A stretch of 35,629 nucleotides of DNA from Candidatus Omnitrophota bacterium (GTDB lineage Bacteria; Omnitrophota; Omnitrophia; Omnitrophales; Danuiimicrobiaceae). Position 1 is the stretch's first letter. Each line of letters begins with the position of its first letter. The notes beneath the pieces are model-generated. The model was given only the letters and a program-made list of their open reading frames with translations, searched no databases and was not told where the DNA came from. The DNA lies in contig JAHFHD010000002.1 in NCBI GenBank assembly GCA_023247075.1, positions 1 through 35,629 on the forward strand, read 5' to 3'. Of the stretch, positions 2,704 through 35,629 are shown piece by piece. The position numbers were made by a program, and so were the translations under genes.

Positions 2704-3959
2704 TAGGCGAGGCTCCGCGCAGCGCTTCGGCCTGCAATTGCACCTGTACTCCAAGCCCATTGAAAATTAAATCCACCGATTCGACCGTCCACATCCATCG
2801 CTTCGCCTGCAAAATAAAGTCCGTGAACTAGTTTTGATTCCATCGTAGAAACATTGATTTCTTTTAGATTCACTCCACCTGCCGTCACCTCCGCTTTTGC
2901 GTAACCAAAAACGCCCGTCACTTCAAGTGGGTAATGAAGCAGTGAGCGGGCAAGCTGTTTCCAATTTTCACCCGAACAGCTCCCAATCGGTTCATCTAAA
3001 CGAATGCTGGCTTTTCTGAGCAATATCTCCACAAAGCGCTCAGGCAATGGAAATTCATCCGCTAAAATATTTTTAATGAGTTTATTCGGATTTCGTTTCT
3101 GCATTGATTCAAACGCGCGTTTAATCGATTCATCATTGTGCTTAGGAAGAAAGCTCGCTGTGATTTGAGGATGCTCTTCCTCCTTTGCGCTTGCGAAGTG
3201 CCGACTCACATCAAGTGCCGCAGGCCCGCTAAAACCAAAATGGGTAAACAAAAACGAATCGCGGTATTCACACTCTTTCTTTCCATCCTTAAAAAAAGAA
3301 AGGTTCGCTTCAAGTGTAATGCCGCTTAAACTTTTCCAGTCACGGTCACTCGTCAGAAGGGGCGTGAGCGCGGGGTAAGTATTCACAATTGTGTGGCCAA
3401 AGTTTTTTGAAATCCGGTAGCCTGCTCCGTCGCTTCCAGTGGTGGGGTGAGAAAGTCCGCCTGTCGTTAAAATTACTTTTCGTGCGAGAATTTCTGAAAC
3501 GCCATTAGAATCTTTCAAACGAAAAAAATCTCCGGCTTGTTTAACTTCTTTAATCCGCACGCCTGTTCTTAAAGCAACCCCAACCTGCTTTGCCTCTTGA
3601 ATCAGTGCATCAAGAACTGTTTGCGCTGAATTGGTAACCGGAAAATATTTTCCGGTTGGCTCAAGCGTAAGCTCAACCCCAATTTCCTTAAAAAACTGAA
3701 TGGTTTCGTCTCCAGGCTTAAACGCCTCAAAAACATGTTTGATAAAATGACTTGGGCCGCCGTGAAAATCGGTTGATTTGACTTCTCGGTTCGTGACATT
3801 GCAGCGCGTTCCGCCTGACATTAAAATTTTTGCGCCTATTTTTTCTTTGGTGTCAAAAAGAACGACTTGCTTCGCTCCCATTCGTCCCGCCCAAATCGCA
3901 GCAGTAAGTCCTGCGGCGCCTGCGCCAATAATTGCAATGTCGCTTGGTTGGTCATTCAT
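2703..3959 (-). CDS. NAD(P)/FAD-dependent oxidoreductase, HI0933/YhiN family flavoprotein
   Basis: IAIIGAGAAGLTAAIWAGRMGA dinucleotide-binding motif; MSGGTRCNVTN; C-terminal GLYFAGEAMDVDGRIGGFNFQWAWSTG. Start chosen at MNDQPSD. Confidence 0.92.
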   Translation of the reverse strand: MNDQPSDIAIIGAGAAGLTAAIWAGRMGAKQVVLFDTKEKIGAKILMSGGTRCNVTNREVKSTDFHGGPSHFIKHVFEAFKPGDETIQFFKEIGVELTLEPTGKYFPVTNSAQTVLDALIQEAKQVGVALRTGVRIKEVKQAGDFFRLKDSNGVSEILARKVILTTGGLSHPTTGSDGAGYRISKNFGHTIVNTYPALTPLLTSDRDWKSLSGITLEANLSFFKDGKKECEYRDSFLFTHFGFSGPAALDVSRHFASAKEEEHPQITASFLPKHNDESIKRAFESMQKRNPNKLIKNILADEFPLPERFVEILLRKASIRLDEPIGSCSGENWKQLARSLLHYPLEVTGVFGYAKAEVTAGGVNLKEINVSTMESKLVHGLYFAGEAMDVDGRIGGFNFQWAWSTGAIAGRSAARSLA

Positions 3960-7847: not shown

Positions 7848-8585
7848 TCAAACTTGAAGCGGGCTTTGCCAGATGGCTTTCGCCACAAAAAAGGGGCCGA
7901 GTGACTCAATGTATTTAGCCGTTTGCTCCGTTTTCCTCATGTCCTGGATGACTCGGGAAAGCGGGTGCAAATCGCGGCTCACAAGCCCCAAAACAAATTC
8001 ATTGTCGCGCTTGTCCATGCCGTAGCAGGAAAGCCGAATGTCATGGACCAAATCGTGATTACCATATTCAATCCCGATTCTGGCATGCTCCATCAAAACT
8101 CGTCCCCGGTCGGCGGCAGGCAAAAGTTCAAATTCGGACTTCCGCCTCAAAGGGTACCAAATGGCCCATGGCCATTGGGGATTCAAAGCGCGCTTTAAGG
8201 GCTTGTAAAGAAGCCATTCTTCCAAATTTTCTTCGCGGCCAAGAGAATAGGTTCTCCCAAACATAGTCATTTCTGAATCACGCACAAGTGATGAGAACGC
8301 GGGTTGTAAAAATAAATCTCTTGCTGTGGTAACAAAGGTGTCTGGATTTTCACTCATCATCAGAACACCGATGCCCGTTGGATCAACTGCATCCTGGTAC
8401 AGCACACTTGGCAAAGCATATCCTTTAAGCGCTTGAATGATGGAAGCCGTTGATTTCGCGCCGCGAAATACCTGAAGCTGAATAAAAAGTCTCCGGTCAA
8501 GTGTTTGAGTCACGCCATTTTTAGGCGCTCCCTTTTCACGAATATCGAGAGCCTCTTTAACTGCATTGTCCTGCTGAGAATGCAT
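7848..8585 (-). CDS. hemQ: chlorite-dismutase-family coproheme decarboxylase (HemQ/ChdC)
   Basis: WAIWYPLRRKSEFELLPAADRGRVLMEHARIGIEYG...DNEFVLGLVSRDLHPLSRVIQDMRKTEQTAKYIESLGPFF; conserved Tyr (WYP) and His (MEHARIG). Start set at MHSQQ; upstream ORF extension is repeat sequence. Confidence 0.8.
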   Translation of the reverse strand: MHSQQDNAVKEALDIREKGAPKNGVTQTLDRRLFIQLQVFRGAKSTASIIQALKGYALPSVLYQDAVDPTGIGVLMMSENPDTFVTTARDLFLQPAFSSLVRDSEMTMFGRTYSLGREENLEEWLLYKPLKRALNPQWPWAIWYPLRRKSEFELLPAADRGRVLMEHARIGIEYGNHDLVHDIRLSCYGMDKRDNEFVLGLVSRDLHPLSRVIQDMRKTEQTAKYIESLGPFFVAKAIWQSPLQV

Positions 8586-8614: not shown

Positions 8615-8936
8615 TGTCATCCTGAGCGGCACATCTTGCGAGTGCGGACATCATCGTAGACGGACATCAAGTCCGTCACACTTTTGGAGAGAACCATCAA
8701 GTTTCTCCCAAAAAGTGCTCGCGCAACAAGCGCGCAGCGCGATGAGTACTGGCGCACATAATCGTAGGCAACGTCAAAGTTGCCTACGATTAGTGCTGGT
8801 GCATTGGCACCTGCATCAGGCGCCGGCAAAAGCGCGAGTGAAGGATCTAGCGATTGCCAGATTCTTCCGCCAAAATACTGGCGGACAAGTTAGTTCGCCC
8901 CGCAGAATAAATTTGCGGGGCTCCTTCAGAATGACA
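8615..8936. repeat. large (322 bp) compound class-1 palindromic element with nested inserts
   Basis: TGTCATCCTGAGC...CTTCAGAATGACA ends; internal hairpins ATCGTAGGCAACG..AAAGTTGCCTACGAT, TTCCGCCAaaatacTGGCGGA, GCCCCGCA-N9-TGCGGGGC. Confidence 0.85.
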
Positions 8937-9890
8937 TTCGGGGGTTAAACCTTCCCGAAAAGTTGGGTAGAGAAATTGAAACCCAAGCGATTTAATTTTC
9001 TGATTCGAACATCGCCTGCTTGAAAGCTTTCTCTCTCTGTCATTGCGCGACGACATTCCAAGAGTTGTCGAAGCAATCTCAGAACAGGGATTGCTTCGTC
9101 CCGGCTGCTTCGCAGCCAGTCCTCGCAATGACGGAACGCCGCGTGCGAGCCAGCTGTAAAACTCGGAGCGCAAAACTGGTTCATCATCCACGCCCAAATA
9201 AATTTGCCCTGACTTTCCGCATTCTAGCAAAAAGTACGCGAGCCTGCCAGCATCGGCAACATGAATGTGATTGGTGTAGCCTTGTGCATCAAGTGACACT
9301 AACCCCTTTTCAATTAAATGAAGGGGGTTGCGCCCCGGGCCATAAATCCCGCTCAGACGAAGCACAATGGATGGGAATGGTGATTTGAGCACAAGAGTTT
9401 CAGCTTCGAGTAAAATTTTTGCATTTTCAGAATCGGCTTTAGTCGGAGTTGATTCATCGACCCACGCACCATCAAAATCGCCGTAGACACTTGTACTTGA
9501 AACCCATAAAAATTTCTTGATTGGACGGTTGCCGAGCGCACAAATTAAATTCCGCGTGGCATCTAGGTAAACGCTTCTGTAATCTGACCGATTTTTTCCG
9601 GGAGCCTGACAAGCCACCACATAATCGTAGTCGGACATCAAGTCCGACTTGATTAGTGCTGGCGCAACCAGCGCCGGCACATAATCGAGTGGTGGAAGAG
9701 AATCAAAATTCTTAACTTTGAGCAAATCCAAAAACAGAGGTTTAATGCCTGCGCTTTTTATTTCGTCTTCATTTTCACGGCTTCTTCTGATTCCCCAAAC
9801 CGAGCAACCTTGGCGAGTGGCATAACGACCTAGTTCAAGCCCCAAGTAACCACATCCCGCGATTAAAAGATTCTTTTTCTTCACGAACAA
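8847..9890 (-). CDS. SDR-type NAD-dependent epimerase/dehydratase carrying three repeat-derived segments
   Basis: LLIAGCGYLGLELGRYATRQG, KKFLWVSSTSVYGDFDGAWVDE, RLSGIYGPGR. Repeat-encoded peptides interrupt it; native C-terminus is probably ...FLYPTFREGL. Confidence 0.8.
   Translation of the reverse strand: MFVKKKNLLIAGCGYLGLELGRYATRQGCSVWGIRRSRENEDEIKSAGIKPLFLDLLKVKNFDSLPPLDYVPALVAPALIKSDLMSDYDYVVACQAPGKNRSDYRSVYLDATRNLICALGNRPIKKFLWVSSTSVYGDFDGAWVDESTPTKADSENAKILLEAETLVLKSPFPSIVLRLSGIYGPGRNPLHLIEKGLVSLDAQGYTNHIHVADAGRLAYFLLECGKSGQIYLGVDDEPVLRSEFYSWLARGVPSLRGLAAKQPGRSNPCSEIASTTLGMSSRNDRERKLSSRRCSNQKIKSLGFQFLYPTFREGLTPECHSEGAPQIYSAGRTNLSASILAEESGNR
9039..9132. repeat. class-2 palindromic element (GTCATTGCG...CGCAATGAC) inside the SDR epimerase ORF
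   Basis: GTCATTGCGCGACGACATTCCAAGAGTTGTCGAAGCAATCTC...GGATTGCTTCGTCCCGG...CCTCGCAATGAC. Confidence 0.9.
9618..9687. repeat. class-3 palindromic insert (60-nt period) bounded by CACATAATCG direct repeats, inside the SDR epimerase ORF
   Basis: CACATAATCG at 9618-9627 and 9678-9687; inner GTCGGACaTCAAGTCCGAC and GCTGGCGCaaCCAGCGCC structures; similar sequence at 8755-8805. Confidence 0.8.
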
Positions 9891-10831: not shown

Positions 10832-12496
10832 TTATTTGTTCGTCATGATTTTGTGGGCGGGTTCAGAACCCGCCCCTATAGATATTTCCTTGAAAATTTT
10901 CTCTGCAACGGCCTCAGCTTGTGCGACGCAATCAGGAATTCCAATTCCCCTGTATGCATTTCCGGCGAGGCAAAGTTGAGGAATTGTTTTCAATTGTTCT
11001 TCAATCGCCATTACTCGCTCCAAATGACCCACGCGGTATTGCGGCATTGAATTTGGAAAGCGCTGAATCAAGCAATGTTCCGGCGATGTTTTAATCCCAA
11101 GCAGCTCACGAAGCTCGGCAAGCACGCTTAAGCGAAGCGACTCATCGTTTGAGCCCAAAATACTTTTTGCGCAAGCGCCGCCGAGAAATACCCGAAACAG
11201 TACAAAATTTTCTGGAGCCCGGTCAGCAAATTTAAAGCTTGAGAAGGTGCATCCGATGATTTTCCTCTTTTCAATTTCAGGTACCACAAAACCAAATCCT
11301 TTTTCCTTCATTTGGGTGAATCGACTTCCGCAGAGTTCATCACTGCGGTATGCAAGATTAACGGTCGCCGCCGATTCGTAAGGAATAGATTCAAGCAAAG
11401 AAGAAAGTGAAGGACTCTGCGCAGAAACAAGCTTTGCAGCTTCATAAGCTGGAAGCGCGAGGCATAGCCAATCACTTGTAATTACTTCCCTCTCTTGTAT
11501 GTCATTCTGAGGCGAAGCCGAAGAATCTAGCGAACTTAGATCCTTCGCGGAGTTTACCCTGAGCGCTAGATCCTTCACTCGCGCTTTTGCGCACTCGCAA
11601 GACGTGTCGTTCAGGATGACACGCGAAGGGCTCAGGATGACATTTTTTGGGGGGGATTTTACTTTCTGTAATTCGATTTTCCACTCGCCCCCCGAAAAAT
11701 GAATTTTTGAAACGCGCGTATTTTTCCTAATGGAATCGGGAGGCAGTTTGCGCTCAAGCGCGCGGACTAATGTTTCCATTCCATTTCGAAAAGATTGAAA
11801 GAGACTGTAACGGGGACCGCTCGCTTCCTTCTGTGCGCCATTTTCAGCATCTTTTTCCAAAAAAGATTTTAAAATACTTCCGTGCTCCTGCTCCATTTTT
11901 TGAAATTTTGGAAGTGTGGCGGCGACACTCAGTTCTTCAGTATTCCCTGCGTAAATTCCGCCAATCATCGGTTGGGCAATGCGGCGAAGTGCCTCGCTTC
12001 CAAATCTGCGCCGCACAAAACTTGCAACACTTTCATCTTCATTGCTTTTTCTTTTTGGGACAAAAGGTTCTAGCGCCATCCGCATTCTGCCTCCAAAACT
12101 CACAAGAGGCATTGAAATTAAAGATGAGGGACGCGTCGGAGCGAGCAAATAAAATCCCTTTGGCACCTGCGTCAGTTTTCCGTGACGAACAATAAAACTT
12201 CTTCTAAATTTTTCCTGAGTTGAGATTAGTTCGTCTTGAATGCCAAGTCTTTGGGCGAGACTCGCGACAAAATTTTTTTCTGTAAGAAAAGAATCTGGCC
12301 CGCCCTCAAAAATAAATCCATTTTGTCTTGTGGATTGAATAACGCCGCCCAAACGGTCGCTTGCTTCAAGAAGAGTGATGGAGAGAGGAAATTTTTGACG
12401 AGCGGAAAGTTCAATCAGTCGGTGGGCGGTAGCAAGTCCCGTAATTCCCCCGCCCACAATGACTACCTGAGTCCCAATGCTACGATTCGTAAACAC
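10832..12496 (-). CDS. hemY: protoporphyrinogen/coproporphyrinogen oxidase (HemY/CgoX type) with in-frame repeat insertion
   Basis: QVVIVGGGITGLATAHRLIE...LEASDRLGGVIQSTRQNGFIFEGGPDSF; PMIGGIYAGNTEELSVAATLPKF; GTG start at 12496-12494. Segment NVILSPSRVILNDTSCECAKARVKDLALRVNSAKDLSSLDSSASPQNDIQ is repeat-encoded. Confidence 0.92.
   Translation of the reverse strand: MFTNRSIGTQVVIVGGGITGLATAHRLIELSARQKFPLSITLLEASDRLGGVIQSTRQNGFIFEGGPDSFLTEKNFVASLAQRLGIQDELISTQEKFRRSFIVRHGKLTQVPKGFYLLAPTRPSSLISMPLVSFGGRMRMALEPFVPKRKSNEDESVASFVRRRFGSEALRRIAQPMIGGIYAGNTEELSVAATLPKFQKMEQEHGSILKSFLEKDAENGAQKEASGPRYSLFQSFRNGMETLVRALERKLPPDSIRKNTRVSKIHFSGGEWKIELQKVKSPPKNVILSPSRVILNDTSCECAKARVKDLALRVNSAKDLSSLDSSASPQNDIQEREVITSDWLCLALPAYEAAKLVSAQSPSLSSLLESIPYESAATVNLAYRSDELCGSRFTQMKEKGFGFVVPEIEKRKIIGCTFSSFKFADRAPENFVLFRVFLGGACAKSILGSNDESLRLSVLAELRELLGIKTSPEHCLIQRFPNSMPQYRVGHLERVMAIEEQLKTIPQLCLAGNAYRGIGIPDCVAQAEAVAEKIFKEISIGAGSEPAHKIMTNK
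10855..10875. repeat. perfect palindrome GGGCGGGTTC-a-GAACCCGCCC in the 3' end of hemY
   Basis: 10-bp arms, 1-nt centre; encodes the C-terminal tail IGAGSEPAHK. Confidence 0.85.
11500..11642. repeat. class-1 palindromic element inserted in frame in hemY
   Basis: TGTCATTCTGAGGCGAAGCCGAAGAATCTAGCG...TTCAGGATGACACGCGAAGGGCTCAGGATGACA. Confidence 0.95.
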
Positions 12497-14646
12497 TAAA
12501 CCCCCTCACCGCCCGCTTGCATCGCTTCCCTCTCCCCCTTAAGGGGGAGAGGGTAGGGTGAGGGGGAGAAGCGACTCATTTGATGAACATATTCGACCAG
12601 CGCAATCACGTGCTCAGGTGGCGTCATTGGAAGGACGCCGTGGCCCAAGTTAAAAATATGCCCCTTTCGTCCCGCAGCTTGGCACAGAATTTTTTTGGCG
12701 TGACTTTTGATTTCATCGAGTCCCGCACACAAAACGGCCGGGTCGAGATTTCCTTGAATTCCAACGTCGTGACCCATTTCATTCCAAGCTTGATCAAGCT
12801 CCACACGAAAATCAACTCCAATCACATCCCCTCCGGCTTCGCGCATTTCTTTTAAAAATGCAGCGGTTCCCGTTCCAAAATGAATGACGGGCGCGGCTTT
12901 TTTAAGCCCCTCGATGACAGATTTCGTGTGCGGCAGAACAAAAGTTTTGTAATCACCCGGACTCAAGCACCCCACCCAACTGTCAAAAATTTGAACTGCG
13001 TCTGCGCCCGCTTCAATCTGAAGCGCGAGAAATTGAGTTAGCCCGCGGCTTAACTTTTGCATCAACGCGTGCCACGCACCTGGGTCGCGGTACATTAATT
13101 GTTTTGTCCGGAGAAAATTTTTAGATCCTCCGCCTTCTAATAAGTAGGAGGCGAGCGTAAAAGGTGCGCCGCTAAAACCAAGAAGCGGAATTTTTGGACT
13201 CAGCGCGCGCCTTGTGAGCCGGATGGCTTCAAACACAAATGCGAGGGATTCCTTGGGATTGATTTCTCTGAGTGCATCAGCGTTGTTTGCGTTTAGGGTG
13301 TCACTAGAAATGACAGGCCCTTCTTCTCCCGAATAATCCAGCTCAAAACCGAGCGACTCGGCGGGAAGAAGTAAATCTGAAAAAATAATGGCTGCGTCTG
13401 CCTTAATTTTTTCCTGAGCGAGCACTGTCACCTCAGCGCAAAGTTCGCTATTTTTGCAAAGCTCAAGGAAAGAAACTTTGTTTCGAATGTCGCGGTACTC
13501 TTTTAAATAGCGGCCAGCTTGCCTCATAATCCAAATGGGCGTCACTTCTGTTTCTTCAAGCCGGCAAGCTTTTAGAAATAACATGTCATTCTGAGGCGAA
13601 GCCGACTTGTCCGCCAGCAATATGGCGGAAGAATCTAGTAAACTTAGATCCTTCGCGGAGTTTACCCTGAGCGCTAGATCCTTCACTTCGTTCAGGATGA
13701 CACGCGAAGGGTTCGGGATGACAACGCCTTTCTTAGCATCTTCGTTTTCTATTTTTTTTCGCACAGAAAAAATTGTGGTTTTAGCTAGTATTAATTCTTT
13801 AGAATGTGCCGCTGTTTCAGAAATCAGAGGTCCCATCTTGGGATGCGTGGGCTCAAAATCAACTGGAAGACCATTTTCCAGAATGGTTTCGCTCGTCGTT
13901 GGACCAACCGAAGAAATCACAATGCGGCCAAGAGCCGCACGAAGCGGCGTCTCAAGCCCTGCTTTTGAAGCAAATTGAATGAGATGGCGCACCTGGGCTG
14001 CATTAGTAAATAAAATAATTGAGATTTCTCCGCTAATTATTTTTTGAATTGCCTGAAGAAGCGGAGCTGTGTCATCTGGAAAAGTCCAGCGGTACACCGG
14101 AATTTGTTCCACTCGCGCACCGCGTTTCTTAAGCGCTGTTAAAAGCAAATCATTGGCAATTCCGTACTCCTGAATGGCTACTGTGCGGCCTTCGAGCGAA
14201 ACACTTCTTTCGCTTAAATCCAGAGCTTCAAGAATTTCGCGCCACGTATTGGGCTCCGGAACATGAATTGAAATTGGAATTTGATATTCCTTAAGCACTC
14301 GCGCGGGTTTTGGGCCGCGCGCAACGATGACCAGCGTGCTTAATTTTTGAATCAGCACTCCGGATGAATCTTGTTTAGAAAGAAAATCAAGCAACATTCG
14401 GGTGCCTACACCCGTCATTAAAATCAGAACATCTATTTTGCCTTCGGAGAGCTTTTTTTGAAAAGCGGATATTGCTGGATTACTTGTGAGTGGGACTTCC
14501 TTGAGTGAAGGCGCCTGAACTACTTTTCCTCCATAACGCTCAATACTTTGAGCCATTACCTCCGCCATCCGGCTCTCAAAACAAACGACGGAGACGCCAT
14601 TAAAATTCGCCCGGGCTTGTGTAGATTCCGCATTTTGGTTTGCCAT
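12496..14646 (-). CDS. hemDE: uroporphyrinogen-III synthase / uroporphyrinogen decarboxylase fusion, joined through a class-1 repeat
   Basis: N-terminal HemD (VSVVCFESRMAEVMAQSIERYGG...FTNAAQVRHLIQFA...ISSVGPTTSETILENG); C-terminal UroD (PIWIMRQAGRYLKEYRDIR...FSDLLLPAESLG...GFSGAPFTLASYLLEGGGSKNF...NLGHGVLPMTPPEHV). Confidence 0.9.
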   Translation of the reverse strand: MANQNAESTQARANFNGVSVVCFESRMAEVMAQSIERYGGKVVQAPSLKEVPLTSNPAISAFQKKLSEGKIDVLILMTGVGTRMLLDFLSKQDSSGVLIQKLSTLVIVARGPKPARVLKEYQIPISIHVPEPNTWREILEALDLSERSVSLEGRTVAIQEYGIANDLLLTALKKRGARVEQIPVYRWTFPDDTAPLLQAIQKIISGEISIILFTNAAQVRHLIQFASKAGLETPLRAALGRIVISSVGPTTSETILENGLPVDFEPTHPKMGPLISETAAHSKELILAKTTIFSVRKKIENEDAKKGVVIPNPSRVILNEVKDLALRVNSAKDLSLLDSSAILLADKSASPQNDMLFLKACRLEETEVTPIWIMRQAGRYLKEYRDIRNKVSFLELCKNSELCAEVTVLAQEKIKADAAIIFSDLLLPAESLGFELDYSGEEGPVISSDTLNANNADALREINPKESLAFVFEAIRLTRRALSPKIPLLGFSGAPFTLASYLLEGGGSKNFLRTKQLMYRDPGAWHALMQKLSRGLTQFLALQIEAGADAVQIFDSWVGCLSPGDYKTFVLPHTKSVIEGLKKAAPVIHFGTGTAAFLKEMREAGGDVIGVDFRVELDQAWNEMGHDVGIQGNLDPAVLCAGLDEIKSHAKKILCQAAGRKGHIFNLGHGVLPMTPPEHVIALVEYVHQMSRFSPSPYPLPLKGEREAMQAGGEGV
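12501..12566. repeat. palindromic element with 26-bp perfect core CCCTCTCCCCCTTAAGGGGGAGAGGG
   Basis: Core 12528-12553; outer arms CCCCCTCACC (12501-12510) / GGTGAGGGGG (12557-12566). Encodes the last residues of the HemE domain. Confidence 0.9.
13584..13723. repeat. class-1 palindromic element at the hemD/hemE junction
   Basis: TGTCATTCTGAGGCGAAGCCGACTTGTCCGCCAGCAATATGGCGGAAGAATCTAG...TTCAGGATGACACGCGAAGGGTTCGGGATGACA. Confidence 0.95.
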
Positions 14647-30008: not shown

Positions 30009-33000
30009 TTATGCAGCGGTTTGAAGTTTTTTGTTAGCAGCACCTTCCAAAAGAAGTCTGAATGCATAAGCCGCGTAATGAGCTTGCTCGACATTAACTG
30101 GTTGAAACACATTAGAAGCACTGCGACGCACACCTGCTATTTCGCTTGTCTTGCCAAGAAGTGACGCCGAAAGAAGAAGTGAATCAGCAAAAGACAATGT
30201 AGAAGCATGGTGCGGCACAGCGGGAGAATCTAGCGAATTTAGATCCTTCGCGGAGTTTACCCTGAGCGCTAGATCCTTCACTTCGTTCAGGATGACAAGC
30301 GAAGGGCTCAGGATAACAGGTGTGCGTGGATCAAAAAATAAAACTCCCAATTCACGCTTAGCTCTTCCGCCCTCAAGATTAATAGTAACGACCATGTTGG
30401 GGGTAGAATACGCCGGGTTGATTAGAATTTGGCCTGGCTTGATCTTACCCTTCAAAACCCCGGCTGTATTTCGCACTCGACCTAAACTCTTTGTGAAAAT
30501 TCCTTCGAGTGCTCTCGCGCCTGTTACTTCAATCTTCAAATCTGGATTTGCACTCGCAAGGTGAACTGCTGTTTCAAATAGTGCATTCAATTCACTCGCG
30601 CCACTTTCAGTAACCTCACCCCAAAACTCAAGTCGAATCGTGCCCTTTGCATGAAGCAGTGCTTGAAACACTCCTTCCAAAGATTTTTCTAGGTTTTCAA
30701 CTTGGGTGAAGTTAATGGAAAATTCGTCATTGCGAAGCAGCATCCCGGGCGATGCTGAAGCAATCTCCATACCTGGATTGCTTCGTCGTCCCCCAGGGAC
30801 TCCTCGCAATGACAAGAAAGATTGAGCAATGTCACCGGTTCTAATGCCTCGAAGCTCACTCAAACGCTCTTCCTCAACCCGATTAATCACTGCCAAAATA
30901 TTTTCAAGTGGAACTTCTGCTCCGCGCGCATCAGTGAGTGAAGCTGCGATCCCGGAAGCAGCTTCTGTTGTGGATTCGGATGCACTTGCAAGTGTTTGCA
31001 ACGTTAAATACTGGCTTAATTCATTTTGAAGAGATTGTGCTGCTGTGTTTCGAACTTCAGAGTGGGCAGAGTTAAAATGTTCTATTGCACTTAATGCCTT
31101 ATTTACTCCATAGTAAACACTTCCAGCCCGATGTTGATTTAAGTGATTCGCCATTACACCAAGGTTAGCTTTAAAGCTCTGCTCATTTGCACTGAGGTAT
31201 GCGCTTCTTAAATCAAAAAGTAACTTTCTCATTTCTTCATAAGCAGGATTGTAACCAAATATGCCAGGTTGCAATAATTCATCCAAAGAAGCTCCTATTG
31301 GTGCATTGAATTTCCATGTCTTGATGAGCTGATTTAAAACCGACTCTATTTTTTGTTTTGTTTCTGGATTAAATTTTAAATTACCTGTTTCAGGTTTCAA
31401 AACAGCAGTTGTGTATGTAAGATCGGGATTAGTGTTTGATTTAACTCTTTGAATATGAGTTCCGACTGGAAAATACTGTTCAGTAAATGGAATGGCGCCG
31501 TTCAACGGAAATAGATTAACGGATGCGTAAATCACTTTAGCGCCTTGATTTAATTGTTCGACCATTCGTTCAGCTAATTTTTCAGCAAAATGAGTATCCG
31601 AATACTCAAGCACCATGGGAAGTGTTCCATAAAAAACAACGTCGTATTTTTTTTCAGGCCGGAAATGAATTAAATCGTTTTGGATGAGGTTCAATTGATT
31701 TTGATTAATCTTTGTACGCAACTCCACCTCATGATGCTGAATAAATGAGTAGTAAAAGACGTGTGCGAGAAAAGAAACTTGTTTTGAGGAAGCATCGAGC
31801 GTTGAATTTTCAATTAATCCCCTGATTTCTTCAATTTTATCACGCACTTGCGATGTACGAATAGAGTCTGCCAATCCTTTTAAGAATTGGATTTGCAGCG
31901 GATTTACATCTACAACATCAACTTCTCCGGCAGCATTCAGAAAATGAAATGGGATCAATGCGCCGCCAATCATCATCACTTTTGAATCTGGGCGAACATC
32001 TGCGATATTTACAATTTCAGATGGATCTTCCATTTGAGGCAGAATTAAATACCCCAGTTGATCCATCAACTGACGAGAATGAGCGTAGATAACCCCGTTT
32101 AAATTGGGTATGGTTTTTTGCCCATCGTCATTTTGTGTTCGAATTTCCGAACGCCGATTCATTGGACTGCGCATTTCATGGCGCTGGTCGGGTTGATTTA
32201 AAAATTCACGGAGTTGGTTTAAATCGCTTGAAGATAATTTCCCTTCCGGGTTTTCAGAATTACCCAAAACACCATTTAAAAGTCGACGGGTTGCGGGGTC
32301 GCCATTTACTGACTTTAGAATACCTTTTGCTTCGCGTGGAGCAAAAAACCATCCACCAAGATTTTTGGTATTGTCTTTTAAATAATTAAAATTCTCTCCC
32401 AGCATTTCACCAAGAGCGGTGTTCACATATTCTCCTAAATTGAGATTGTTCCCAAGAGCTTGCGGCTTTGTTTGCACATGTTCCGCCAAAGCAGCCAGTA
32501 TTGGGTCGCGGCTGAAAATTTCATGCTGATTCTCTGGCAAAAGATTTCTCTTCACCCAATCCACTTGATCCAGCGCCTCAGCAATCGGTGTTGTGGGCGT
32601 CACTTGAAAATGCCATGTCTCGACGACTGACTCTTCTGTTTTATTTTTTTGACCGGGGCGGTCTTTAAAAAGACTTTCGGCTCCGGTTTTAATCTCACCC
32701 CAAGTTAACGCTTGGGACTCTTCAAGCAATTTCAATGTCCATTCCTCGGGAATGTCATTTTGACCAAGTAATTCGAGCGAATCTTTTGCATTTACACTGG
32801 TGCCGTTCACCATTGATTGTAAGAACCGAAGTTTCAAGGACTCTTGTTCAGATTGATTGTCTGGGTGTATTCCGTTTTGAGTAGCGTTGCTCAACATGTC
32901 ATTCTTCGCCAAAAGGACGAATCCGTCCTCTGGCGGATGAGGCGAAGCCGACTTGTCCGCCAGCACTGTGACGGAAGAATCTGGCGAACTTAGATCCTTC

Positions 33001-35333
33001 ACTCCGCGCAGCAGCCCTTTAGGGTCGTTCAGGATGACAAGCGAAGGATTCGGGATGACACTGCTTTTTCTGAAATGCGCCTGACTATTTAACTCCGAAA
33101 TTGCACTTTTTAAACTTTCTGACAAATTTTCTGCGCCGAGTTCGGCTGCCACATTCCACGCAATTTCCACATCCAGAGGATATTCTTGACCGAGTTGATT
33201 AAAAAATAAATCGTAAGCGGCAGCTGCATCATTTCCGTTTTCAGGATTTTGAAGTGCATCTAGAAAACTCTCGTGAGCCAAGCTCGCCAAAGAGTGCTTG
33301 ATGTTCGCTATTTCCTCATCAGAATAAGAAGGCTGCCAATTGGGATGTTGGCTCATCCTTTGTTTCCAAATTCGCGAGTGAAGTTCGGCCAAATCCAAGC
33401 GAAGCGGTGGAAGCGTAAGTGCTGAGCTTAAAAGTTCAAGGTCTGTAGATTCAGACCACAACTCGAACATTGCATTTCTTAAAATCGAACCGGTGTTTTC
33501 AGAGAGCCATATTTTCGCTAATGCATCTGCTTCAATTTTCTCCACCGCTTCCTTAAGTTTCTGCGACCATTCGGCGGGCACAAGTTGACTTGCCATTCCA
33601 ATTAAAATTTTAGGATTTAAAAAATCTGCTTCTGTGCGCTTCGAATCAGGAAGAGTGTCTTTGTACATTTCATTCATTATTTTTGCAATGAGCGCACGCT
33701 CTTCGCCGCTTCGCGCGGAGTCTAAAAGCGCCTTGGCAAAATCAGAAAATGCCACGTCCCAATTTTGGGTTTTACCTTCGTTGTATGCTGCAATTGCTTC
33801 ATCCACCGTTCGAGCAAAGTAGCGGCTGTCACTGAGTTGGGCTTTGTCGCGCTCTTTTTCAGGAACAACTGTCACCCCGCTTGTCGCTTCAACATAAAAC
33901 CACTCATTGCCAAATGAATTTTTACGGACAAATGGCGCTCCATGAAATGCTTTTTTTGTATGTTTCGTTTTTTCAGGGTCGCGCAATATGCCGCCAGCAA
34001 TAGCCACATCTTCAAGTGGATACCCATAATCGGTTAAACAAATCTGAACAACTCGGGCCAGCCAATCGCAATCCATTGGAACAAAACCATTCTTTCGATA
34101 AAGTCTTCGAGAATAACTCATTAGCGTCTCACCTTGATCAAATGGTGCCATCTCATGGTCATGAACATACCGGTAGTATTTTCGAACCAGCTCCATTACT
34201 TTTTTTGCTATGGCCAATCTTCCTCCTTGTAACTCAAAAACAAACCCATGCGCTTTTAATTGATTCATGTCTTCTTTTAACTCTGGGAACATGTCTAAAT
34301 GTTCGAGCACAAGTCTCAACCTCTGTTCTTTTGTAGGTATTGATGGATTCATAATTTTCAAAACATTTTCTGTTTCTCGAATTTGATAAGTAATCATTAC
34401 TTCCTCACCTGAGGGATTGTTTCCCACGTCAAGTTGTCCGTTTGAATTTAATGTGATTCCTTTGCTGTTTGTCCAACCAGAACCAACGCGCTCCTCATTT
34501 ACTTCAAACTGAATCACTTGAGAATTTGTTGCTATGGGTAAAGTGGTCTTTTTCGGAAGCGTGTTAGGTGTCACCAACACTGTTTCCTCAAGCACAGCTC
34601 CGCTTGGGATAATTGGTCCGCTCTCCATATCAATTGGACGAAAATCCATAGACCCATCTGCGTCAGGACCTGCTGTAATTCCCATTGGCAAAAACAAAGA
34701 AAACGAGTCTCGACCATTTGCATTTGATGAAATAAGTTTGGTCTTTAAAATTGTTTCGCCATCCTCCTGCGGTTCCAGACCAAGCGCAGGAAAACGGCCG
34801 CGCTCAAATCTAGATGACGGTTTTGGTAATTTGCTCAATTGATCTTCCGGTTCCAACATGTGGTCAAAATATGCCTGCACTTCCTGAAGAGGTATTCCCA
34901 AAAAGCTCAACACGTCATCAAGTGTGACAAGTTTCGATTCGACATTATTTAAGCTAAGACCTTTTGTGACAAGTTCCGAACCGCCTCGATGAAAAAGAAA
35001 ATATCTTTCGACATCATTTAAGCTAAAACCTTTCGAAATCAAAAATTCATCCATTTCCTTTAAGGAAAGACCATACTTAAAAAAGAATTCCTCTAAATCA
35101 AGCGGCGGGCGTTCACGTCTTAGAGAAAGTAGTGGATGAAGAATGGGGTGTTGAATGGCATTTGAATTAACCACATCACTTGTGATGTAGAAATTTTTGG
35201 GCTTTTGATTAAATGACACTACTCGATGTCTTGCTTCTAATGTCGAAATAGCTCCGGCGGCAAAGATCAAAGACACGAATGCTCCTACTACCAACCAAAA
35301 AAATAAATCAAACAATAAATCAAGCTCTTCCAT
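30009..35333 (-). CDS. giant membrane-anchored multidomain protein (~1774 aa from the proposed start): helical repeats, transglutaminase-like segment, SAM-methyltransferase-like segment; several repeat insertions
   Basis: Proposed ATG 35333-35331 (MEELDLLFDLFFWLVVGAFVSLIFAAGAIST TM segment); PMDCDWLARVVQICL...FHGAPFV...EWFYVEATSG; DSKVMMIGGALIPFHFLNAAGEVDVVDVNPLQIQFLK. The tracked start at 35597 lies in repeat DNA. Confidence 0.65.
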   Translation of the reverse strand: MEELDLLFDLFFWLVVGAFVSLIFAAGAISTLEARHRVVSFNQKPKNFYITSDVVNSNAIQHPILHPLLSLRRERPPLDLEEFFFKYGLSLKEMDEFLISKGFSLNDVERYFLFHRGGSELVTKGLSLNNVESKLVTLDDVLSFLGIPLQEVQAYFDHMLEPEDQLSKLPKPSSRFERGRFPALGLEPQEDGETILKTKLISSNANGRDSFSLFLPMGITAGPDADGSMDFRPIDMESGPIIPSGAVLEETVLVTPNTLPKKTTLPIATNSQVIQFEVNEERVGSGWTNSKGITLNSNGQLDVGNNPSGEEVMITYQIRETENVLKIMNPSIPTKEQRLRLVLEHLDMFPELKEDMNQLKAHGFVFELQGGRLAIAKKVMELVRKYYRYVHDHEMAPFDQGETLMSYSRRLYRKNGFVPMDCDWLARVVQICLTDYGYPLEDVAIAGGILRDPEKTKHTKKAFHGAPFVRKNSFGNEWFYVEATSGVTVVPEKERDKAQLSDSRYFARTVDEAIAAYNEGKTQNWDVAFSDFAKALLDSARSGEERALIAKIMNEMYKDTLPDSKRTEADFLNPKILIGMASQLVPAEWSQKLKEAVEKIEADALAKIWLSENTGSILRNAMFELWSESTDLELLSSALTLPPLRLDLAELHSRIWKQRMSQHPNWQPSYSDEEIANIKHSLASLAHESFLDALQNPENGNDAAAAYDLFFNQLGQEYPLDVEIAWNVAAELGAENLSESLKSAISELNSQAHFRKSSVIPNPSLVILNDPKGLLRGVKDLSSPDSSVTVLADKSASPHPPEDGFVLLAKNDMLSNATQNGIHPDNQSEQESLKLRFLQSMVNGTSVNAKDSLELLGQNDIPEEWTLKLLEESQALTWGEIKTGAESLFKDRPGQKNKTEESVVETWHFQVTPTTPIAEALDQVDWVKRNLLPENQHEIFSRDPILAALAEHVQTKPQALGNNLNLGEYVNTALGEMLGENFNYLKDNTKNLGGWFFAPREAKGILKSVNGDPATRRLLNGVLGNSENPEGKLSSSDLNQLREFLNQPDQRHEMRSPMNRRSEIRTQNDDGQKTIPNLNGVIYAHSRQLMDQLGYLILPQMEDPSEIVNIADVRPDSKVMMIGGALIPFHFLNAAGEVDVVDVNPLQIQFLKGLADSIRTSQVRDKIEEIRGLIENSTLDASSKQVSFLAHVFYYSFIQHHEVELRTKINQNQLNLIQNDLIHFRPEKKYDVVFYGTLPMVLEYSDTHFAEKLAERMVEQLNQGAKVIYASVNLFPLNGAIPFTEQYFPVGTHIQRVKSNTNPDLTYTTAVLKPETGNLKFNPETKQKIESVLNQLIKTWKFNAPIGASLDELLQPGIFGYNPAYEEMRKLLFDLRSAYLSANEQSFKANLGVMANHLNQHRAGSVYYGVNKALSAIEHFNSAHSEVRNTAAQSLQNELSQYLTLQTLASASESTTEAASGIAASLTDARGAEVPLENILAVINRVEEERLSELRGIRTGDIAQSFLSLRGVPGGRRSNPGMEIASASPGMLLRNDEFSINFTQVENLEKSLEGVFQALLHAKGTIRLEFWGEVTESGASELNALFETAVHLASANPDLKIEVTGARALEGIFTKSLGRVRNTAGVLKGKIKPGQILINPAYSTPNMVVTINLEGGRAKRELGVLFFDPRTPVILSPSLVILNEVKDLALRVNSAKDLNSLDSPAVPHHASTLSFADSLLLSASLLGKTSEIAGVRRSASNVFQPVNVEQAHYAAYAFRLLLEGAANKKLQTAA
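30222..30318. repeat. class-1 palindromic element (left-truncated), in frame inside the giant gene
   Basis: AGAATCTAGCGAATTTAGATCCTTCGCGGAGTTTACCCTGAGCGCTAGATCCTTCACTTCGTTCAGGATGACAAGCGAAGGGCTCAGGATAACA. Confidence 0.92.
30726..30813. repeat. class-2 palindromic element, in frame inside the giant gene
   Basis: GTCATTGCGAAGCAG...GAAGCAATCTCCATACCTGGATTGCTTCGTCG...CTCGCAATGAC. Confidence 0.92.
32897..33060. repeat. class-1 palindromic element with two extra modules, in frame inside the giant gene
   Basis: TGTCATTCTTCGCCAAAAGGACGAATCCGTCCTCTGGCGGATGAGGCGAAGCC...CACTCCGCGCAGCAGCCCTTTAGGGTCGTTCAGGATGACA...GGATGACA. Confidence 0.95.
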
Positions 35334-35338
35334 TTCTA

Positions 35339-35524
35339 TGTCATTCTGACCCTGCAGGGGGAAGAATCTAGTGGACATGAATTCTTTTATGGAATTCATC
35401 CTGAGCGCTAGATCCTTCGCGGAGCTTGCCCTCGAGGCGCCCAGATCCTTCACTTCGTTCAGGATGACACGCGCCGAAGGGCTCAGGATGACAAGCAAAG
35501 GACGTAGGATGACACGCGAGGGAT
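35339..35524. repeat. class-1 palindromic element with multiple ~21-nt tail units upstream of the giant gene
   Basis: TGTCATTCTGACC...TTCGTTCAGGATGACACGCGCCGAAGGGCTCAGGATGACAAGCAAAGGACGTAGGATGACACGCGAGGGATTC. Confidence 0.9.
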
Positions 35525-35537
35525 TCAAAGCGCGGCC

Positions 35538-35629
35538 GTCATTGCGAGACAGGTTCCCAGGTGTTGTCGAAGCCCCTACGGGATCCCGTAGGGACAATCT
35601 CGTATTCTTGGGATTGCTTCGTCCCGGCT
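35538..35629. repeat. class-2 palindromic element (right end off the window) with nested CCCTACGGGATCCCGTAGGG palindrome
   Basis: GTCATTGCGAGAC...GTTGTCGAAGCCCCTACGGGATCCCGTAGGGACAATCTC...GGATTGCTTCGTCCCGGCT. Confidence 0.9.

Follow-up and report, generated by a model that had tools for sequence, protein, structure and literature searches.

Small double-hairpin elements nested in one another and in other palindromic repeats at the SDR-hemQ junction of a bacterial genome

The stretch of DNA analyzed here (the window, 35,629 nucleotides) carries between two heme-pathway genes, an SDR/epimerase gene and hemQ, a compound element of 322 bases, from 8615 (TGTCATCC..) to 8936 (..GAATGACA). Three of its layers, A, A3, and A4 below, are members of a family of mobile hairpins of about 60 bases that had not been named before and recurs across related bacteria; the family belongs with the small palindromic mobile elements. 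The layers are separable, both they and the outer palindromes are also found without each other, and the insertion points are precise and lie mostly in single-stranded loops. The mobility of the elements is well supported, and we consider it probable that the compound consists of small, non-coding, palindromic mobile elements that were inserted into one another by the steps proposed below. Small palindromic repeats are common in bacteria. To our knowledge, the spread of those without coding capacity is mostly unsolved outside the REP/RAYT pairs, and nesting of such palindromes is otherwise known to us from Volvox organelles. A limited literature search found no open-access paper on nested palindromes in bacteria.

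A first-pass annotation, made from the letters of the DNA, had placed the outer ends of the element exactly where we found them and had described its interior as a module split by an insert. The two halves of this module are CACATCTTGCGAGTGCG at 8630-8646 and CAAAAGCGCGAGTGAAGG from 8827 onward. The insert between them measures 180 nt (8647-8826), as in the text of that annotation and not the ~190 bp of its title. The unsplit form, CACGTCTTGCGAGTGCG|CAAAAGCGCGAGTGAAGG, was recovered from the class-1 palindrome copy within hemY, as had been claimed (11564-11621, minus strand). By copy comparison this copy consists of the class-1 palindrome and one further hairpin, L1, and is an empty site for the next layer, A. 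The nesting itself was borne out, but comparison of copies resolves four levels (0-3) where three had been read.

All layers are given on the plus strand. Level 0 (L0) is the class-1 palindrome, with a 5' arm (TGTCATCCTGAGCG..) at 8615-8629 that pairs with the remainder of the palindrome at 8837-8936, the latter ending in GAATGACA and delimited by the fold and by copy comparison. Level 1 is L1, a hairpin of ~27 nt inserted at AACGA^AGTG of level 0; its left half (CACATCTTGCGAGTGCG, 8630-8646) is unsplit in hemY and in 14 other copies, and its right half (CAAAAGCGCG, 8827-8836), assigned by copy classification, has its CA in common with the end of A. An unrelated palindrome (L073) carries the same hairpin, at its site CCCGCGA^AAGCGGG. 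Level 2, element A (60 nt, two hairpins), sits in the L1 loop GCGCA^AAAGCGC and occurs there alone in three copies (L145, L156, L161). Its hairpin 1 is CATCATCGTAG-ACGGAC-ATCAA-GTCCGT-..CGATGAG and its hairpin 2 is TACTGGCGC-loop-GCGCCGGCA. In the window A is in three parts: the lead and hairpin 1 (GACGGAC-ATCAA-GTCCGTC) at 8647-8678, the 3' base of hairpin 1 with the 5' arm of hairpin 2 at 8740-8756, and the 3' arm of hairpin 2 with the terminal CA at 8816-8828, the middle part being placed by alignment of copies with and without inserts and the last part likewise by alignment. Level 3 comprises two further double hairpins, A3 within hairpin 1 of A (8679-8739; covariance model match 8677-8736) and A4 in the loop of hairpin 2 (8757-8815; match 8755-8815). 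The covariance model also matches a fragment of the hairpin-1 loop of A at 8660-8676. Elsewhere in the genome deeper nests were found: a fourth relative, A5, lies in the loop of A3 (L035, L043, L079), and A4 was found there too (L016, L034).

The full 322-base element occurs once in the 2.28-Mb genome, and its pieces give 84 matches. The motif GTCATYCTGA of the outer class-1 palindrome was found at 506 sites genome-wide, compared with 1 for the reversed control. Folded as RNA, a check that the first-pass annotation had proposed, the whole compound forms one multi-branched structure at -157.7 kcal/mol (shuffled sequences -101.5 +/- 5.1, z -11), and the opposite strand folds nearly as well.

A covariance model was built from 13 A-type units from several genomes, in which 93.3% of cells were paired over 23 pairs. 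Nine pairs were changed on both sides; there were 18 such cells, against 5.8 in shuffles (0/500) and at most 2 in slid controls. This model recognized A3 (E 1.1e-8 in the window, 7.3e-7 genome-wide) and A4 (E 1.2e-9 in the window), and the inner layers therefore belong to A's own family. A, A3, and A4 form one structural family with compensatory changes, nested in itself. The family model matches 67 places in the window's genome and up to 12 in other genomes, with matches in 23 of the 49 genomes of the class and in several families; A3 alone has 41 matches in the window's genome. The window had no match in Rfam, the window element none among plasmids or phages, and the A-type pattern none in viral contigs.

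Copies of L1 were located genome-wide by AAAAGYGCGAGYGAAG and all 32 were classified by composition; the raw counter enters two copies on contig C113 twice, as their loci overlap. L1 was bare in 15 (43 nt) and contained A alone in 3 (about 102 nt), A with A4 in 3 (about 162 nt), A with A3 in 4 (163 nt), and A with both A3 and A4 in 5, the window copy included (223 nt). The remaining 2 were more complex compounds: the one on C95 holds two A in tandem and one more inner element, its third, and the other is on C175. A4 was missing in L014, L015, L021, and L023. Because L1 copies vary in this way, the compound is not an invariant unit. The stepwise nesting proposed at first pass is upheld by this variation, since bare L1, L1 with A alone, and all four states of presence and absence of A3 and A4 exist, and also by the occurrence of each layer apart in unrelated hosts and by sister genomes that are without the compound at the orthologous gene junction. 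The reconstruction of an insertion order, which had likewise been proposed, does not tell which of A3 and A4 came first: with all four combinations in existence no single linear order accounts for the set, and elements must have entered repeatedly, been lost precisely, or been exchanged between copies by recombination. Some compounds have clearly moved or recombined as compounds (L016, L019, L021, L043). In two copies (L013, L033) the hairpin-1 loops are inverted relative to the other copies (TTGAT for ATCAA), which suggests strand switching at the hairpin.

The outer palindromes that house members of the A family are of at least six unrelated kinds, and members were also found in a MITE and in genes. 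Hosts in the window's genome and related ones were L0, L1, hairpin B, and the TCATTCCCGCG, TCATCCCCG, and TCATTGCG palindromes, and in the relatives the hosts include TCATCCTGAG, TCATTGCG, TCATCCCCG, and GATCCCCGA palindromes. Hairpin B (GTACCGYG..CRCGGTAC) carries the family in four genomes (G004, G007, G020, G038), and a terminator-like hairpin of G002 (L067) carries a copy. G038 has the ~190-bp MITE in its empty form (TTGCATCCAAAGTTTTG), and G004 has it with an insert at TCCA^AAGTTTT (TTGCGTCCA, an insert ending in GCCGGCA, AAGTTTTG). Since each layer is available in empty and filled form, within a single genome as well as among sister genera, the insertion sites are resolved to single bases. 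The inserts are mostly preceded by the nucleotide A, usually in CA or TA, and end in the same dinucleotide (CA..CA or TA..TA); one B site (L072) is an exception, without the expected YA.

To characterize the insertion points, the insert was removed in silico and the host was folded for 11 distinct host types. The insertion point lay outside stacked stem pairs in 10 of the 11, mostly in apical loops (chance product about 3e-4); the exception was A3 in A, at a paired position beside a bulge. Of 21 sites that lie in other sequence, among them B hairpins and genes, 3 had a flanking hairpin that stood out (p < 0.03), one being the SDR site, which when empty (CCACCACTCGATTATGTGGTGG) forms a hairpin. 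A loop is thus favored and not required, and a strict hairpin-loop requirement was rejected on these 3 of 21 sites. The loop preference is real and not absolute, and it may be inflated by detection bias because insertions that break a stem are harder to recognize. In two gene insertions the first 8-9 nt of the element recur directly after its 3' end, a pattern that suits homology-guided insertion better than a simple dinucleotide rule.

The compound adjoins one gene and forms part of another. The SDR/epimerase gene (8847-9890, minus strand; Pfam PF01370 and protein alignment) has its C-terminal ~29 codons and its stop within the class-1 element. The hemQ gene (chlorite-dismutase family; 7848-8585, minus strand; Pfam PF06778) had its start reassigned to 8585, where the likely start codon, an ATG, stands behind an AAGAGG ribosome-binding site. 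With this start the compound is upstream sequence for hemQ and ends about 29 nt before it. The earlier statement that the element contributes to both ORF ends therefore holds for the SDR gene, but at the hemQ end it reflected a mechanical extension of the ORF. In addition, a solitary A-family element lies in the SDR gene at 9618-9679 on the plus strand, antisense to the gene (covariance model E 6e-16), and adds 20 in-frame residues (aa 72-92) that six orthologues are without (L122, L124, L126, L127, L129, L130). The gene contains three in-frame palindromes in all: this A-type copy, a TCATTGCG palindrome (9036-9135; residues 253-286, about 34 residues), and the end of the compound. SDR orthologues in G004 and other genera lack all three, and in G004 and G002 hemQ directly follows the SDR gene at a junction without the compound. 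In the ferrochelatase of G002, a sister genus, an A-family copy likewise adds 20 in-frame residues (L211, G002:C70:4561-4622), and the first 9 nt of this element are repeated after its 3' end. Such whole-codon insertions in conserved enzymes (SDR, ferrochelatase) mean that the family changes proteins.

We propose that a class-1 palindrome inserted between the SDR gene and hemQ and received L1 in its first hairpin, that A entered the loop of L1, and that two members of A's own family then entered A, one per hairpin. The elements would move as folded single strands, probably of ssDNA exposed during replication, and the host would receive them immediately 3' to an exposed A, mostly that of a CA or TA and often in a hairpin loop. 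Every new copy could supply a fresh loop of the GCGCA^AAAGCGC type as the next landing site, so that nesting would be recursive and the outer fold would be kept intact. Copies in the same type of host may later swap inserts via recombination. The elements would be selfish or neutral, and in genes they would be retained when whole codons are added, as here. Loop preference together with a self-made landing site makes a testable rule for repeat nesting. Beyond this, and only tentatively, we raise the possibility that mobile double hairpins of ~60 nt make up a superfamily, so far undescribed, across a bacterial class; they would prefer exposed hairpin loops, their own included, and would use a route other than RAYT, DDE transposase, IS110, or reverse transcription, each copy would carry the next landing site, and compounds would grow by recursion. 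Neither reverse transcriptase (PF00078) nor the IS110 transposase (PF01548) had a match in the window's genome, which is 95% complete, and both were rejected as movers because they are absent from it.

The double hairpins might be REP-like substrates of a Y1 (HUH) TnpA-REP, the GTAG at the foot of hairpin 1 guiding cleavage at CA, a reading that we regard as doubtful. Of 31 A-type units, 24 have GTAG directly before the inner stem, A3 has GGAG there, the elements end in CA or TA, and the window's genome has two Y1 transposase genes; one TnpA-REP, the Marinomonas enzyme, cuts CA with GTAG as guide (PMC8266576). The link between Y1/RAYT genes and the family was however absent at the flanks in the 58 genomes in which it was looked for: none of 32 Y1 loci (the genome's own two and 30 copies in relatives) was flanked by an A, A3, A4, A5, or B-type element at meaningful score, and the Y1 gene on C82 is accompanied by a different REP of its own. 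G003, with 12 copies of the family, gave no Y1 match. In 7 of the 31 units GTAG is changed to GCAG with a compensating change opposite, so GTAG behaves as the base of a stem, which weakens its candidacy as a fixed guide; the GTAG/GGAG motif also lies inside a longer stem and not at a stem end. Inverted REP pairs (BIME/REPIN) were not found, the arrays being direct (C6, C95, C146, C152). Two related REP-like palindromes accompany a RAYT-like gene on C82, one (GGGCAGGTTTAGAACCTGCCC) inside the coding region and the other upstream of the gene's start (L082:2657-2677, 3015-3035).

Reduction and recombination offer another, in our judgment unlikely, account: an old, full compound would have given rise to the simpler copies through deletion of hairpins and through gene conversion among the dispersed palindromes, new insertion being rare and template switching accounting for the rest. 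This agrees with the existence of all four A3/A4 combinations, with chimeras and hybrid joints (L019, L021, L026, L043), with the inverted hairpin-1 loops of L013 and L033, with nested compounds in G002 and G003 as well, and with the 8-9-nt repeats of the element's 5' end that flank two gene insertions. Yet the inner layers are of A's family and also stand alone in unrelated hosts, orthologous genes of sister genomes are without the element, and the MITE lacks the insert in one genus and has it in another, all of which is beyond what deletion can create. The strong fold (z -11), the covariation, and the site just upstream of the hemQ start would also befit a functional structured RNA, with the compound as a regulatory leader or terminator of heme genes; we think this very improbable, given that copies occur in many gene contexts and within ORFs, that their composition varies freely, that the window has no Rfam match, and that sister genomes with the same genes are without the compound. 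Least credible of all is an assembly artefact, in which dispersed repeats were misjoined from short reads. The genome is a draft in 186 contigs, of which several terminate in these repeats, and Ns are present in some arrays, but the window copy lies in the interior of a 45-kb contig whose operon order is kept in G004 and G002, and the same nesting is seen in independent assemblies of other genera.

In fungal and other mitochondria, double-hairpin elements are found in which two tandem hairpins form the mobile unit. The A family resembles them in its two adjacent hairpins, both backed by covariation; it is bacterial, and the likeness is one of architecture. Palindromic repeats averaging 50 nt and often inserted within one another occur in the organelle DNA of Volvox carteri, where compounds reach 633 nt and some are repeated as compounds (PMC2670323). 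Those repeats are single hairpins of organelles and, except for one rRNA module, are intergenic or intronic, whereas the A family consists of two-hairpin units in bacterial chromosomes and enters coding genes too. REP or GTAG-tagged palindromes associated with RAYT transposases have GTAG or GGAG beside the hairpin, are small and dispersed, and have a conserved covarying stem (PMC3733652, PMC8266576). The A family is likewise small and dispersed and has a conserved covarying stem, and most of its A-type units have GTAG at a hairpin (GGAG in A3), inside a longer stem. It differs in having two dissimilar hairpins per unit, direct arrays, no linked RAYT, and nesting in the loops of other repeats. 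As with the Rickettsia palindromic elements (RPE), there is in-frame insertion in conserved protein genes, with 20 aa added to the SDR protein and 20 aa to the G002 ferrochelatase, and class-1 copies in hemY and in a HemD-HemE linker. RPEs are CGTC-tagged single palindromes, set apart by description from the two-hairpin units, and the accessible part of their literature does not describe the nesting seen in the A family. Like MITEs, the A family is non-autonomous, dispersed, and non-coding. Unlike them it is without terminal inverted repeats, its ends CATNATCG.. and ..GCGCCGGYA not being inverted repeats of each other, and its flanking duplication is 2 nt or none, compared with 7 bp (CTAGTCC) for the MITE of G038.

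Flanked by 7-bp repeats (CTAGTCC), this ~190-bp MITE of G038 interrupts hairpin 1 of an A element at L084:1990-2180 and in L083 and L085. The 190-bp insert of L084 had been a candidate for another nested palindrome and was rejected as such, because the 7-bp flanking repeats identify a MITE. Relatives of the MITE in G004 (L192-L200) in turn carry a double-hairpin element, and the two kinds thus nest mutually.

Several further observations concern reading frames. The G002 orthologue of the SDR gene (L123) has about 20 extra residues (RQPRGTVRTSARPALNQTAP) near the site of the A element in the window's SDR gene. At 13570-13702 of the window a class-1 palindrome occupies the linker of a HemD-HemE fusion (HEM4 aa 30-275, URO-D aa 356-689). 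Several class-1 palindromes (VILNEVKDLALRVNSAKDL..), a number of which share one reading frame, are translated within an ORF of 1862 aa without a Pfam match (30009-35597). On contig C6, a PNPOx-type gene reads in frame through a direct array of five A-type units that includes a stretch of Ns (L071:2327-2646).
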